Source: Brevundimonas sp. (GTDB lineage Bacteria; Pseudomonadota; Alphaproteobacteria; Caulobacterales; Caulobacteraceae). From it: 64,000 bases of DNA. The stretch is from NCBI RefSeq assembly GCF_013912065.1, contig NZ_JACESA010000010.1, forward strand, positions 62,001-126,000, written 5' to 3'. Below the pieces are notes generated by a model that was not told the origin of the DNA, ran no database searches, and saw nothing but the letters and a program-made list of their open reading frames with translations. Each line of letters starts with the position of its first letter. The stretch's first letter is position 1. Positions 11,806 to 62,900 of the stretch are shown piece after piece. A program made the translations under genes and the position numbers.

Positions 11806-13224
11806 CTAACCCTGGCTCGCCGGCGGCAGGACCAGGGCCACGCGCAGTCCCGGCCCGAAACCTTCGTAGGCGCCGGGGCCTTCGTCCAGCACCACCCGGC
11901 CGCCGTGGGCCTCGGCCACCGCCGTGACCAGGGACAGGCCCAGGCCAGAGCCCGGCTCGGTGCGGCTGTTGTCCAAGCGCACGAACCGCTGGACCACCCG
12001 TTCGCGGTCCTCTTCCGGCACGCCCGGCCCGGTGTCCGTCACCGAATATTCGATCTCGCCCGACGACCGTCGCCGCGCCCGCAGTTTCACCGCCCCGCCG
12101 GCCGGGGTGTATTTGATGGCGTTGTCGATCAGATTGGCCAGGGCCTGGGCCAGGAAGGGCTGGTTGCCCTCGATCATCAGGCCGGTCTCGACCTCGGCAG
12201 AGAAGTCGATGGACTTGTCCTCGGCCGCCGGTTCGTAAAGCTCGGCCATGTCGGCGGCCAGTTCCGAGGCGTCCATCAACTTGGGATCCGGCGCGCCCCC
12301 GGCTTGCAGACGGGCGATGGCCAGGACGGTGTTGAAGGTCTTCAGCAGATGGTCGGCCTCGTCCAGGGCGATGCCCAGGGCGTCGACCCCGTCGATCTTG
12401 CCCGCCTCGGCGTCGATCAGGGCCACCTCCAGCTTGGCCCGCATCCGCGTCAGGGGCGAGCGCAGATCGTGGGCGATGGCGTCGCCGGCGTGTCGGATCG
12501 AGGCCATCGATCCCTCCAGCCGATCCAGCATGGTGTTCAGCCCCTGGCCCAGTTCGTCCAGTTCGTCGCCGGTGTGGCGGATCACCGCCCGCTGTTTCAG
12601 GTCGCCGTCCTGCACCGCCTGGACCACGCGGTTCAGCCCGCCCATGGCGCTTTCGACCCGTCGGCTGACGTAGAGGCCGCCCGCCAGGCCCAGCAGCATG
12701 ACCAGGCCCATGGCGCCCCACAGGGCCTGGGTCAGGCGCGACAGATATTCCTCGATCCCGCCGATATCCTCGCCGACGAACAGGGTGTCGCCGCCGGCCA
12801 GCGGCATGATCACGCCGATGGAGCGGCGGTTCTCGACCCGACCGTCCGGATCGGTGCTGGTCAGGCGGAAGGTGCTCCATTCGCCGGCCCCGATCCGGCG
12901 CTGCTCCTGCAGATCGAAAGGCATGACCGACAGATTGCCGGTGACGATCCGGCCGTCCGGCCCGGTCAGCAGATACAGATAGGGACCGCCCCGGATCGTC
13001 CGTTCGACCAGGGCCTGGTTCAGGGCGTCGATTCCCCGCGTCCGATGGATGGCCGTCAGGGCCTCCAGCTCGGTCTCCACATCGGTCCGGGCGCGGGCCT
13101 GGGCCTCGGACGCCGAGGCGAAATAGACATAGGCCAGGATCGCCCCCGCCGCCGCCACGAACAGGGCCAGGAACAGCAGGGTCAGCCGGAAGGGGGTGCG
13201 GCGAAGGAGGGAGGGGAGGCGCAT
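11806..13224 (-). CDS. Membrane sensor histidine kinase with HAMP domain
   Basis: 472 residues. Membrane helices at about 14-35 and 167-186 flank a periplasmic sensing domain; a HAMP linker follows at about 187-240. The phospho-acceptor is His252 in AIAHDLRSPLTRM. The ATP-binding boxes are present: N-box LANLIDNAIKYT, G1 DTGPGVPEEDR and G2 GSGLGLSLV. Its partner should be the OmpR-type regulator at 13699-14370, from which it is separated by a DUF559 cassette. The start ATG at 13224 lies three bases from the cassette gene's stop, and the only purine-rich sequence upstream is inside the cassette's GC repeat. Confidence 0.92.
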   Translation of the reverse strand: MRLPSLLRRTPFRLTLLFLALFVAAAGAILAYVYFASASEAQARARTDVETELEALTAIHRTRGIDALNQALVERTIRGGPYLYLLTGPDGRIVTGNLSVMPFDLQEQRRIGAGEWSTFRLTSTDPDGRVENRRSIGVIMPLAGGDTLFVGEDIGGIEEYLSRLTQALWGAMGLVMLLGLAGGLYVSRRVESAMGGLNRVVQAVQDGDLKQRAVIRHTGDELDELGQGLNTMLDRLEGSMASIRHAGDAIAHDLRSPLTRMRAKLEVALIDAEAGKIDGVDALGIALDEADHLLKTFNTVLAIARLQAGGAPDPKLMDASELAADMAELYEPAAEDKSIDFSAEVETGLMIEGNQPFLAQALANLIDNAIKYTPAGGAVKLRARRRSSGEIEYSVTDTGPGVPEEDRERVVQRFVRLDNSRTEPGSGLGLSLVTAVAEAHGGRVVLDEGPGAYEGFGPGLRVALVLPPASQG

Positions 13225-13226
13225 GG

Positions 13227-13628
13227 TTAAGAGGGTTCTCCCTCCCCCTGCGGGGGAGGGTGGTCGCCGCGCAGCGGCGACCGGGTGGGGCGGGCAAGGC
13301 AAGACGCACGCACGTCCTCGACGATGCGCGCCAACTGGTCCCTGACCATGAGGTTGTCATAGCGCAACGTCACCAACCCCTCTCTCGCGAAGACAGCGTC
13401 GCGAACGCGATCCTGTCTTGCTCGATCTTCGACCAGATGAGAATCGCCGTCCACTTCCACGATCACGCCGCGAGCCCAGCAGAAAAAGTCGAGATAGTAG
13501 CCGCGAAGAGGCGCCTGCCGCCGGAAATGCAGCCCCTCCGACCGAAGGGCGCGTAGGGCGATCCACAGACGGGCTTCGGCGGGCGTCATCGTCTTCCGCA
13601 TCGCGCGGGCTCGAGCAATGATCGCCAT
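13227..13628 (-). CDS. DUF559 endonuclease-like protein in a repeat-flanked cassette
   Basis: 133 residues from the ATG at 13628. The family signature is clear: RKTMTPAEARLWIALR, LHFRRQAPLRGYYLDFFC, and VIVEVDGDSHL followed by the Arg-rich segment. DUF559 is related to the very-short-patch-repair and restriction endonuclease fold; the catalytic acidic pattern D...EVDG is preserved. Its activity is not established. The last residues (HPPPQGEGEPS) are encoded by the flanking GC repeat. The gene and inverted repeats together fill the space between a response-regulator gene and its kinase, which argues for a mobile or domesticated insertion. Confidence 0.82.
   Translation of the reverse strand: MAIIARARAMRKTMTPAEARLWIALRALRSEGLHFRRQAPLRGYYLDFFCWARGVIVEVDGDSHLVEDRARQDRVRDAVFAREGLVTLRYDNLMVRDQLARIVEDVRASCLARPTRSPLRGDHPPPQGEGEPS
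13236..13294. repeat. Left inverted repeat of the DUF559 cassette
   Basis: TTCTCCCTCCCCC, a GC hairpin and GGGTGGTCGCCGCGCAGCGGCGACC form a roughly 55-bp unit. An inverted, slightly shorter copy is at 13638-13689. The left repeat runs into the 3' end of the DUF559 gene. Confidence 0.8.
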
Positions 13629-13637
13629 GTCGCCCTG

Positions 13638-13689
13638 CCCTCCCCACCCGGCCGCTGCGCGGCCACCCTCCCCCGAGGGGGAGGGAGAA
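13638..13689. repeat. Right inverted repeat of the DUF559 cassette
   Basis: Read on the minus strand this is TTCTCCCTCCCCCTCGGGGGAGGG followed by TGGCCGCGCAGCGGCCGGGTGGGG, matching the left copy except for small indels in the two hairpins. It ends 9 bp before the response-regulator stop codon. Confidence 0.8.
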
Positions 13690-13698
13690 TAAATGCCC

Positions 13699-14370
13699 TT
13701 ACGCCTCCAACCGATACCCCGCCCCGCGCACGGTCTGGAGCATGGCCCGGTCGAAGCCCTTGTCGATCTTGGAGCGGAGGCGGCTGATGTGGACGTCGAT
13801 GACATTGGTCTGGGGGTCGAAATGATATTCCCAGACCTTTTCCAGCAACATGGTGCGCGTCACCGACTGGCCGGCGTGGCGCATCAGGAACTCCAGCAGC
13901 TGGAACTCGCGCGGTTGCAGGTCGATCTCGGTGGCCCCGCGATGCACGGTGCGGGCGATCAGGTTCATCTCTAGGTCCCCGACCTTGAGCACGGTCTGGA
14001 CACCGCCGGTCTCGCGCCGGCGGGCCAGGGCCTCGACCCGCGCGATCAGTTCGGCGAAGGCGTAGGGCTTGACCAGATAGTCGTCGGCGCCGGCCTTCAG
14101 GCCCGTGACCCGGTCCTCGACCTCGCCCAGGGCGGACAGGAACAGGACCGGGGTCTGGTCCCCGCCCTTACGGACGGTCTCGACCATGCCGACGCCGTCG
14201 AGGCGCGGCATCATCCGGTCGACGACATAGACGTCATAGCCGCCCTTCTGGGTCTCCAGCAGGCCGAAGGCGCCGTCCACCGCATGGGTCACCTCATGGC
14301 CGGCCTCGGACAGGCCCCGCACCATGGCCGTCGCCGCCTCGGCGTCGTCCTCGACCACCAGAATCCGCAT
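13699..14370 (-). CDS. OmpR-family response regulator
   Basis: 223 residues. The receiver domain shows VVEDD at the start, the phospho-acceptor Asp51 in VVDRMMPRLDG and Lys in VKPYAF. A winged-helix DNA-binding domain follows from about 128, with LQPREFQLLEFLMRH and the recognition region VIDVHISRLRSKID. The ATG at 14370 follows GGAGGGGTTTG; a TTG one codon upstream is not needed. It most likely pairs with the kinase at 11806-13224. A strong hairpin separates it from degP, so the two-component genes have their own promoter or rely on read-through. Confidence 0.92.
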   Translation of the reverse strand: MRILVVEDDAEAATAMVRGLSEAGHEVTHAVDGAFGLLETQKGGYDVYVVDRMMPRLDGVGMVETVRKGGDQTPVLFLSALGEVEDRVTGLKAGADDYLVKPYAFAELIARVEALARRRETGGVQTVLKVGDLEMNLIARTVHRGATEIDLQPREFQLLEFLMRHAGQSVTRTMLLEKVWEYHFDPQTNVIDVHISRLRSKIDKGFDRAMLQTVRGAGYRLEA

Positions 14371-14393
14371 CAAACCCCTCCCGGAATCAAAAC

Positions 14394-51446: not shown

Positions 51447-51470
51447 CTCCCTCCCCTGCGGGGGAGGGAG
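51447..51470. repeat. GC hairpin repeat between dnaA and dnaN
   Basis: CTCCCTCCCC (51447-51456) pairs perfectly with GGGGAGGGAG (51461-51470) around TGCG. The same motif borders the DUF559 cassette at 13236 and 13689. It may serve as a terminator for dnaA; followed by AAATCT rather than a T-run. Confidence 0.7.
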
Positions 51471-61767: not shown

Positions 61768-62900
61768 CGTCCCATTTCCCGCGCAATGATCACCCGCATG
61801 ATCTCGTTGGTTCCTTCCAGGATGCGGTGGACCCGCAGATCGCGGACGATCCGTTCCAGCGGATAGTCCTTCAGATAGCCGTAGCCGCCGTGCAGTTGCA
61901 GGGCCTCGTCGGCGATCTGGAAACAGGCGTCGGTAGCCAGACGTTTGGCCATGGCGCACCATTTGGTCTTTTCCGGGTGGTCCACGTCGATGGCCCAGGC
62001 GCCGCGCAGCACCATCAGCCGGGCCGCCTCCAGATCGGTCGCCATGTCGGCCAGGCGGAACTGCAGCGCCTGGAACTGGCCCAGCGGCTGGCCGAACTGT
62101 TTGCGAGTCGTGACGTATTCCTGGGCCGTCTCCAGCGCCAGCCGCGCTCCGCCCAGCGAGCAGGCGGCGATGTTCAGCCGGCCGCCGTCCAGACCGGCCA
62201 TGGCGTAGCGGAAGCCCGCCCCCTCCTCGCCCAACAGATTGGCGACGGGCACGCGGCAGTCGTCGAACTGGACGATGGCGGTCGGTTGGGCGTTCCAGCC
62301 CATCTTCCGCTCCTGAGCCCCGAACGACAGGCCGGGCGTCCCGGCCTCGACGACGACGGCGCTGACGCCTTTCGGCCCCTCGACGCCCGTGCGGACCATG
62401 ACGACATAGACGTCCGACGTCCCCGCGCCCGAGATGAAGGCCTTGGAGCCGTTCAGCACATAATGGTCGCCGTCCCGCACCGCCGTCGTCCGCAGCGCCG
62501 CCGCGTCGGAGCCGGAGCCCGGCTCGGTCAGGCAGTAGCTGGCGATCTTCTCCATTCCCACCAAGGCGGGGACGAACCGTCCGCGCAGATCGTCCGACCC
62601 GAACCGGTCGATCATCCAGGTCGCCATATTGTGGATCGAAATGAAGGCCGCCGTCGCCACGTCGCCGCGCGACAGCTCCTCGAAGATCAGCGCCGCCTCG
62701 ACCCGGCCCAGGGCCATGCCGCCGTGCTCCTCGCCTGTGTAGATGCCGCAGAAGCCCATTTCGGCCGCCTGTTTCATCACATTGACGGGGAAATGCTTGT
62801 CCTCGTCCCAGCGGGCCGAATGGGGCGCCAGCTCGGCGTCGGCGAAGGCGCGGGCCGCGTCCTGGATGGCGCGCTGGTCGTCGGTAAGGGCGAAATTCAT
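61764..62900 (-). CDS. Acyl-CoA dehydrogenase, probably isobutyryl-CoA dehydrogenase
   Basis: 378 residues with the full acyl-CoA dehydrogenase fold: SYCLTEPGSGSDAAAL (FAD/substrate region), LNGSKAFISGAG, QFGQPLGQFQALQFRLADM and the C-terminal catalytic region LQLHGGYGYLKDYPLERIVRDLRVHRILEGTNEIMR. The Glu in RILEGTNEI is the base used in short-chain family members. Position in the mmsA-acd-hydrolase-mmsB cluster identifies isobutyryl-CoA as the likely substrate. It is seven bases from the mmsA stop. Confidence 0.92.
   Translation of the reverse strand: MNFALTDDQRAIQDAARAFADAELAPHSARWDEDKHFPVNVMKQAAEMGFCGIYTGEEHGGMALGRVEAALIFEELSRGDVATAAFISIHNMATWMIDRFGSDDLRGRFVPALVGMEKIASYCLTEPGSGSDAAALRTTAVRDGDHYVLNGSKAFISGAGTSDVYVVMVRTGVEGPKGVSAVVVEAGTPGLSFGAQERKMGWNAQPTAIVQFDDCRVPVANLLGEEGAGFRYAMAGLDGGRLNIAACSLGGARLALETAQEYVTTRKQFGQPLGQFQALQFRLADMATDLEAARLMVLRGAWAIDVDHPEKTKWCAMAKRLATDACFQIADEALQLHGGYGYLKDYPLERIVRDLRVHRILEGTNEIMRVIIAREMGR

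Follow-up and report, generated by a model that had tools for sequence, protein, structure and literature searches.

In a Brevundimonas sp. genome, a small gene of the DUF559 family lies between the genes of a response regulator and a sensor kinase, closely bracketed by inverted repeats, raising the question of what such a cassette is and of how the gene and its repeats are related. The window analyzed here (the whole stretch of 64,000 nucleotides, positions 62,001 to 126,000 of contig NZ_JACESA010000010.1) carries, on its minus strand, the gene order response regulator, DUF559 gene, kinase, with DUF559 being the sole ORF filling the cassette. The relevant features are as follows:

11806..13224, minus strand: sensor kinase with HAMP, HisKA, and HATPase domains, downstream neighbor
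13227..13628, minus strand: DUF559 (PF04480) coding sequence for a predicted PD-(D/E)XK nuclease; probable start codon ATG 13628, with 2 bp separating the end of the ORF from the kinase ATG
13236..13298, plus strand: REP on the kinase side, inverted, with hairpin 1 at 13240-13260 and hairpin 2 at about 13262-13282
13283-13290, plus strand: mirror tail GGGTGGGG of the kinase-side REP, placed by the tail rule
13632..13689, minus strand: REP on the response-regulator side, with hairpin 1, hairpin 2, and a GGGTGGGG tail toward the gene
13699..14370, minus strand: OmpR-type response regulator, upstream neighbor (listed ORF 13699-14373, ATG 14370 preferred)
51447..51470, strand not assigned: single hairpin similar in sequence to the core of the REP hairpins, located between dnaA and dnaN (as named in the original prediction)

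The two REP-like repeats, of about 60 bp each, are inverted around the gene as the original prediction had claimed, with arms of 20-37 nt that are 73-90% complementary and pair positions of about 13236-13298 with 13632-13689. Each consists of hairpin 1 (CCCTCCCCC/GGGGGAGGG type), hairpin 2, and the GGGTGGGG tail directed toward the gene; the tail mirrors the arm GGGGAGGG, such that a pyrimidine arm, a purine arm, and a mirror purine tail lie on one strand. The gene matches Pfam PF04480 with E-values of 9e-24 (long ORF) and 3e-24 (short ORF), the scores of the window ORFs being 83.9 and 85.4 bits against a cutoff of 20.6. Translation likely starts at ATG 13628, just inside the right repeat, and not at 13805, in overlap with the response regulator. 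The left repeat encodes the C-terminus PPPQGEGEPS, in agreement with the prediction, which also correctly placed the beginning of the unit 9 bp past the response-regulator stop; its statement that the unit ends 2 bp before the kinase ATG is true of the DUF559 ORF but not of the repeat, which ends 11 bp before ATG 13224. The hairpin core reported between dnaA and dnaN is present, with 2-3 mismatches to the 19-nt core, and no second hairpin of the same core was seen near it. At 3 mismatches, the 19-nt core has 10 matches in the window, with 4.5 expected; since 3 of 100 shuffles give as many, the dnaA-dnaN site alone proves little.

A kinase search covering 73 genomes, our own included, gave a match in all, and the best 30 loci, again including our own, were examined. 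Among these best 30 of 73, the response regulator-kinase spacer holds the cassette in 10 genomes, our own included (spacer 461-548 bp), a gene-less repeat pair of another class in two (138-140 bp), and another inverted repeat in five (133-151 bp); the two genes adjoin directly in 13 (-1 to 21 bp), and relatives with such junctions, whose existence had been predicted, are thus real. The identity of DUF559 tracks that of the kinase among the 10 cassettes (45 pairs, Pearson 0.74), a correlation that suggests long residence of the cassette at this site. On the kinase tree, genomes with and without the cassette are intermingled (8 changes are needed, versus a mean of 8.6 after shuffling, with 209 of 500 shuffles as low), suggesting repeated loss, gain, or allele exchange. 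The bases beside the cassette are unlike those of close direct-junction relatives, so that a clean or scarless insertion cannot be read off at the window site. The proposed insertion of a mobile or domesticated endonuclease into the two-component pair is therefore upheld as to a repeat-ended nuclease cassette and the direct junctions in relatives; a fresh clean insertion is disfavored by the differing flank bases, the kinase tree, and the DUF559-kinase correlation, and no evidence of domestication was found. Separately, an unrelated inverted-repeat element with GTGGCGA/TGGTGA-type units was observed in the spacer at five loci (L146, L147, L151, L160, and L161); one exact 17-mer of this element occurs in 2 of 303 loci (L160 and L161) and not in the window.

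Genome-wide, the 21-nt core was found with up to 2 mismatches at 38 palindromic sites, compared with none for the reversed control. Among these sites are seven inverted pairs of 144-237 bp that belong to the window's repeat class and contain no gene, and a doubtful eighth at a contig start; the remaining sites are related hairpin classes or solitary. The ends of the cassette match those of the gene-less pairs on both sides, and a related GGCARGGCG-like stretch lies just inside the tail in the cassette and gene-less pairs alike. Gene-less copies with the same ends thus exist in this genome. No target-site duplication was seen by eye at the seven pairs with both flanks. Only one other PF04480 match is present in the genome, in a gene lying between two repeat pairs of a different class (CCTTCTCCCC/GGGAGAAGG, tail GGATGAGGGG). 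The expectation of further DUF559 copies with the same flanking repeat therefore held insofar as the second copy is repeat-flanked, but not for the class of its repeat. PF01797, the profile of the Y1/RAYT transposase, has no match in the genome.

Bracketing was scored in further DUF559 elements by comparing 200 bp on each side with the reverse complement of the other side, with a cutoff of at least 36. The loci were not drawn at random but taken from the best-scoring DUF559 matches or from among the first of the matches listed, and elements were dropped if the domain was shorter than 240 nt, the flanks were shorter than 200 nt, or the sequence was identical to another. This left 89 elements from 91 loci in the window's order (one locus, L104, having no match), 49 from 50 in the class, and 70 from 80 in named genomes (10 had short flanks). 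Among the matches listed, inverted flanks reached the cutoff in 64 of the 89 elements of the order, compared with 2 of 749 control sites at the same loci and 1 of 32 neighboring genes. In the class-wide set, they did so in 21 of the first 30 elements listed (control sites, 0 of 302) and in 36 of all 49 listed (neighboring genes, 0 of 24). For the named genomes, the count among the matches listed was 52 of 70 (control sites, 0 of 810), distributed as follows: Alphaproteobacteria 30/39, Gammaproteobacteria 9/15, Betaproteobacteria 5/6, Hydrogenophilia 1/1, Planctomycetia 1/1, unclassed 6/6, Myxococcia 0/1, and Desulfobulbia 0/1. Pooled, 152 of 208 distinct DUF559 elements among the matches listed are bracketed, whereas this is true of 2 of 1861 control sites. 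The elements are not all independent, many being orthologs; 146 of them group into 85 site clusters. The rarity of bracketed control sites and neighboring genes led us to reject chance as the cause. Counting against a nuclease-driven origin of the repeats, 56 of the 208 listed elements lack a strong inverted flank. One locus carries two tandem DUF559 domains about 330 bp apart (L129:1146-2102).

The two flanks, moreover, are matched. Among the 146 listed elements, a hairpin of an assigned class was found on both flanks in 95, on one in 38, and on neither in 13, and both flanks share a class in 88 of the 95 listed elements with two (shuffled mean 26, maximum 39). That at least one flank is without a classed hairpin in 51 of the 146 listed elements is a further point against the nuclease-driven reading. 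Repeat class also follows the protein: on a DUF559 tree of the 52 site clusters whose flanks share one class (102 columns, many forks open), 16 class changes were counted compared with 28.7 after shuffling, with 0 of 200 shuffles as low. This signal comes from the CCTTCTCC, CCCTCCCC, and CCCTCTCC classes, and the CCTCCCC and CCTTCCCC classes showed no clustering on the tree of 52 clusters. Thus, the linkage between DUF559 and the repeats extends to a matching of class from flank to flank and from protein to repeat. Ordinary terminators are disfavored, the repeats being paired, of several classes, and linked to DUF559.

What the main classes have in common is the relation of tail to stem: the tail repeats the purine arm in mirror order, with A read as A or T. 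The G*GC, A*AT, and T*AT triads of an antiparallel purine triplex would account for this relation. The arm and tail pairs are GGAGAAGG with GGATGAGG, GGAGAGGG with GGGTGAGG, GGGGAGGG with GGGTGGGG, GGGGAAGG with GGATGGGG, GGGAGGGG with GGGGTGGG, and GGGGGAGG with GGAGGGGG. The mirror tail is complete (8/8) in 287 of 425 REPs, compared with 75 (maximum 95) for shuffled tails, and of the nine commonest classes, eight have own-class mirror rates of 67-90% and one a rate of 41%. Of 422 asymmetric arms, 186 fit the mirror reading better than the direct one, 27 fit the direct one better, and 209 fit both equally.

Judged by its sequence, the repeat flanking DUF559 is typically the intrastrand-triplex repeat motif already published, as described in the accessible part of that paper (PMC4666352). 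According to the same text, these repeats (Holder et al., 2015) fold in vitro and are unsupported in vivo, the E. coli consensus is CCCTCNCCCN3-6GGGNGAGGGN3GGGNGAGGG, and E. coli has five inverted pairs of the motif (PMC4666352). The accessible text reports no association with mobile elements, flanking genes, or gene classes, and words beginning with "nuclease", "DUF", or "ycjD" are absent from the paper (PMC4666352). E. coli motif no. 9 (1351204-1351239) lies between fabI and ycjD, 167 bp past the ycjD stop; ycjD is named a DUF559 protein in RefSeq, and K-12 YcjD matches PF04480 with an E-value of 1e-49. We estimate that at most 36 of 4760 annotated E. coli features adjoin any of the paper's 18 motif regions, and hence that the chance of ycjD adjacency is near 1%. 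No matching repeat was found on the other side of ycjD, and this one-sidedness counts against the nuclease-driven reading. The ycjD locus (L303) is polymorphic in E. coli, with at least 80% of the locus found in one place in 3362 of 5426 genomes.

If DUF559 and the repeats belong together, their numbers might be expected to covary among genomes. Strong DUF559 matches were defined by E<=1e-20, a threshold chosen after inspection of the class-wide matches, and genomes whose matches were all weak, 31 within the class and 23 beyond it, were omitted from the main contrasts. The class sample of 387 genomes comprised 95 with strong DUF559, 261 without, and the 31 weak ones. Each sample was counted with one hairpin pattern (CTCTCCCN{2,8}GGGAGAG in the class), so that other classes are missed; figures for at least 10 copies are given because each DUF559 gene itself adds a few hairpins. 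In the class, the strong-DUF559 genomes have a mean of 17.6 and a median of 8 copies, with at least 10 in 45 of 95, versus a mean of 0.68 and a median of 0 in genomes without DUF559, with at least 10 in 4 of 261; the mean of the weak-match-only genomes is 1.74. The association is also observed within families and genera: in families holding both states (n=31), the genomes with DUF559 have the higher count in 25 cases, the lower in 3, and an equal one in 3, and within genera (n=17), higher in 13, lower in 2, and tied in 2, with one genus showing a count of 59 with DUF559 versus 0 and 0 without. Outside the class (181 of the 289 phylum-sample genomes, counted with the published triplex stem), the median is 24.5 in 26 strong-DUF559 genomes versus 0 in 132 without, at least 10 copies are found in 19/26 versus 4/132, and DUF559 genomes are higher in 7 families, lower in none, and tied in 1; the 23 weak-match-only genomes have a mean of 6.70.

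The exceptions count against a nuclease-driven origin. Among genomes in which no DUF559 was detected, at least 5 repeats occur in 10 of 261 in the class and 5 of 132 outside it, and 19 of the 95 strong-DUF559 genomes have zero copies of the first pattern. For a sister pattern, these 19 have a median of 9 versus 3 in 20 DUF559-less relatives (p 0.012), and 12 of 19 versus 4 of 20 have at least 5 copies and three times background; several of the 19 still lack the sister pattern too, and counterexamples with no DUF559 detected are G350 (88 copies), G488 (48), and G478 (35). In the E. coli control genome, the profile search gave no PF04480 match, though K-12 YcjD matches strongly; either ycjD is absent from the control strain or genes can escape the search, and some genomes counted as being without DUF559 may be false negatives. 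One genus of the samples holds genomes with 88 and 103 hairpins (G160 and G473), several of whose first-listed places are pairs about 80-210 bp apart. Genome G713 has 140 triplex stems with a weak DUF559 match only (E 1.3e-5), whereas in its congener G697 the match is strong and the stems number 206; perhaps the nuclease was recently lost or decayed in G713 after the repeats had spread. With respect to a RAYT as the mover, Y1_Tnp, the superfamily of RAYT, showed no association with repeat number over the 387 genomes of the class: none of 48 Y1-positive, DUF559-negative genomes has at least 5 repeats, compared with 39 of 70 Y1-negative genomes with strong DUF559. This candidate was rejected, as Y1 does not predict the repeats and none is present in our own genome.

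An indication of movement was found in G115, of the window's order, whose single-contig chromosome of 3.37 Mb carries a 669-bp unit twice, on opposite strands and with about 151 kb between the copies, which agree at 662 bases. In each copy, the DUF559 gene lies between two REPINs of 120 bp that are in direct order and match at 114 positions. The identity extends as far as the triplex tails, which read CCCCTCACCC and GGATGAGGGGG at the two ends, and the outer flanks of the two copies gave no match by blastn or tblastx. The whole REPIN-DUF559-REPIN unit was thus duplicated recently in this genome; no target-site duplication was seen by eye at the two copies. Among the matches listed, homology is limited to the element region in 12 of 81 locus pairs whose DUF559-spanning DNA is at least 78% identical, with outer flanks unrelated in 7 of these pairs and showing some homology in 5.

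The protein itself is a predicted nuclease. In an alignment of 34 diverse sequences (A1), E13, D42, E53, and D55 are invariant, and H59 and D66 are present in at least 90%. This E-D-ExD-H-D pattern looks like an active site and agrees with the EDxHD type of Vsr repair endonucleases. Against the PDB, the DUF559 profile gave 8 matches at E<=1, among them the solved endonuclease-like protein 3hrl, a close relative (E 5.7e-37), and, weakly, the mobile-intron protein 3r3p (I-Bth0305I, of the EDxHD family; E 0.004); Vsr is not among the eight. In earlier work, as far as its accessible text goes, a profile of YcjD found Vsr at 1e-5 (PMC1189080). Likewise, the available part of the report on Caulobacter VsrA describes a Vsr-like protein containing a DUF559 domain, functionally linked to a cytosine methyltransferase and proposed to be a VSP repair nuclease (PMC12907096). 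The window DUF559 gene, whose immediate neighbors are the response regulator and kinase, has no cytosine methyltransferase beside it, and is a free-standing ORF between REPs, not contained in an intron or intein.

DUF559 is thus associated with triplex REPs by observation, and we consider it probable that it acts as a Vsr-like nuclease by which its cognate triplex REPs are propagated, with the window cassette being a member of a large family of two-part selfish elements. One part would be the small single-domain Vsr-like (EDxHD) nuclease, DUF559. The other would be the cognate REP, a polypyrimidine/polypurine hairpin, often followed by a second hairpin and then by a purine-rich tail, which mirrors the purine arm and could fold back as an intrastrand triplex. 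Such REPs are scattered between genes in inverted, REPIN-like pairs, with the nuclease gene inside or between pairs. The nuclease may recognize the folded REP, probably when it is single-stranded at replication, and nick or cut it, and host repair would then complete the copying, by which repeats and gene would spread. The mode of action would thus resemble that of RAYT/REPIN, the enzyme being unrelated. We prefer REPINs moved in trans by the nuclease to a nuclease homing into REPs. Two points concerning the joining step count against this scheme: PD-(D/E)XK enzymes normally hydrolyze and do not join, and neither a clean empty site nor a target-site duplication was found at the response regulator-kinase relatives, own-genome pairs, or G115 copies. 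The stronger proposal, that DUF559 is a new class of mobility enzyme, recognizing a hairpin-plus-triplex end and copying REPs and its own gene with no transposase, is tentative, and we give it somewhat less than even credence.

A rival account is homing into existing REPINs: DUF559 would cut in REPs, the flanking REPs would serve as homology arms, and the REPINs would be moved otherwise. The weak similarity to 3r3p fits such a process, as does the 669-bp duplicate, which is exactly REPIN-gene-REPIN with its 120-bp REPINs in direct order, as gene conversion would leave it. The orientation of the nearest tails can be read in the same way: of 205 elements among the matches listed, 75 have both nearest tails directed toward the gene and 9 have both directed away from it, the others being mixed or without a tail or hairpin. 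However, homing predicts REPs to be common in genomes without DUF559, where at least 10 copies were found in only 4 of 261 and 4 of 132 genomes, and no Y1 transposase is available in our own genome to move the REPINs; we consider homing unlikely.

A host function, with DUF559 as a Vsr-like repair or structure-processing nuclease kept by repeat-rich genomes and the linkage being secondary, would agree with the conserved active-site pattern and with the repair role proposed, in the accessible text, for the DUF559-containing VsrA (PMC12907096). It does not, however, predict bracketing by repeats of one class, co-inheritance of protein and repeat class, or duplication of the gene together with its repeats, and is distinctly improbable. 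The least credible account, already disfavored and given hardly any weight here, is a passive one in which any short intergenic gene would acquire neighboring REPs, as terminators or as targets of insertion, and DUF559 is cargo. REPs are indeed intergenic, and other short elements occupy the response regulator-kinase spacer in 7 of 30 genomes, but control sites and genes at the same loci are rarely bracketed (56 control genes, not size-matched), and a passive model does not give the copy-number association within genera.

The preferred reading, that the nuclease propagates its cognate REPs, would allow two orphans, DUF559 and the triplex repeats, to explain each other. DUF559 nucleases are widespread and little studied, and the association points to a partner gene for repeats of previously unknown origin; a search of the openly accessible literature, preprints aside, revealed no report of a link between DUF559 and repeats of this kind. 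If the stronger proposal of a new class of mobility enzyme is true, the triplex repeats of E. coli, Neisseria, and others would be the non-autonomous fraction of one ancient nuclease-driven family. If the nuclease drives the repeats, REPIN-like DNA can also arise by a route independent of RAYT, whose enzyme and folded substrate are testable in E. coli K-12. The association also cautions against calling DUF559 genes repair enzymes by default.

Among known systems, a close parallel is REPIN/RAYT, in which, according to the accessible text, inverted REP doublets occur and the enzyme gene is flanked by the same repeats (PMC3116915). As there, inverted REP doublets are dispersed between genes here, the enzyme gene lies inside the same repeats, several families can share one genome, and the window-class inverted pairs (seven of 144-237 bp) fall within the REPIN size of about 100-250 bp. 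RAYT REPs carry a GTAG/CGTC tag at the hairpin foot, as described in the part of the source available (PMC3733652). The differences are that a predicted PD-(D/E)XK nuclease takes the place of a Y1/HUH transposase, Y1 genes do not track the DUF559 repeats, and the tail mirrors a hairpin arm. The TM/PIT intrastrand triplex repeats share the same three-block motif, the E. coli consensus in the accessible text corresponding to one class here (PMC4666352), but the repeats described here are linked to DUF559 and show covariation in several class variants. MITEs and their parent IS provide a likeness in that copies lacking the gene have the same ends as the copy that carries it, but DUF559 is the only ORF filling the cassette, and no target duplication was seen. 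The mobile-intron nuclease 3r3p belongs to a related nuclease family and its gene lies within a mobile unit, but the profile match is weak, and neither an intron nor an intein is present here. Finally, Vsr and Caulobacter VsrA share the Vsr-like nuclease, with VsrA having a DUF559 domain; unlike the window gene, which has no neighboring methyltransferase, VsrA is proposed, in the accessible text, to act in mismatch repair, and "palindrom" and "transpos" are absent from that paper (PMC12907096).
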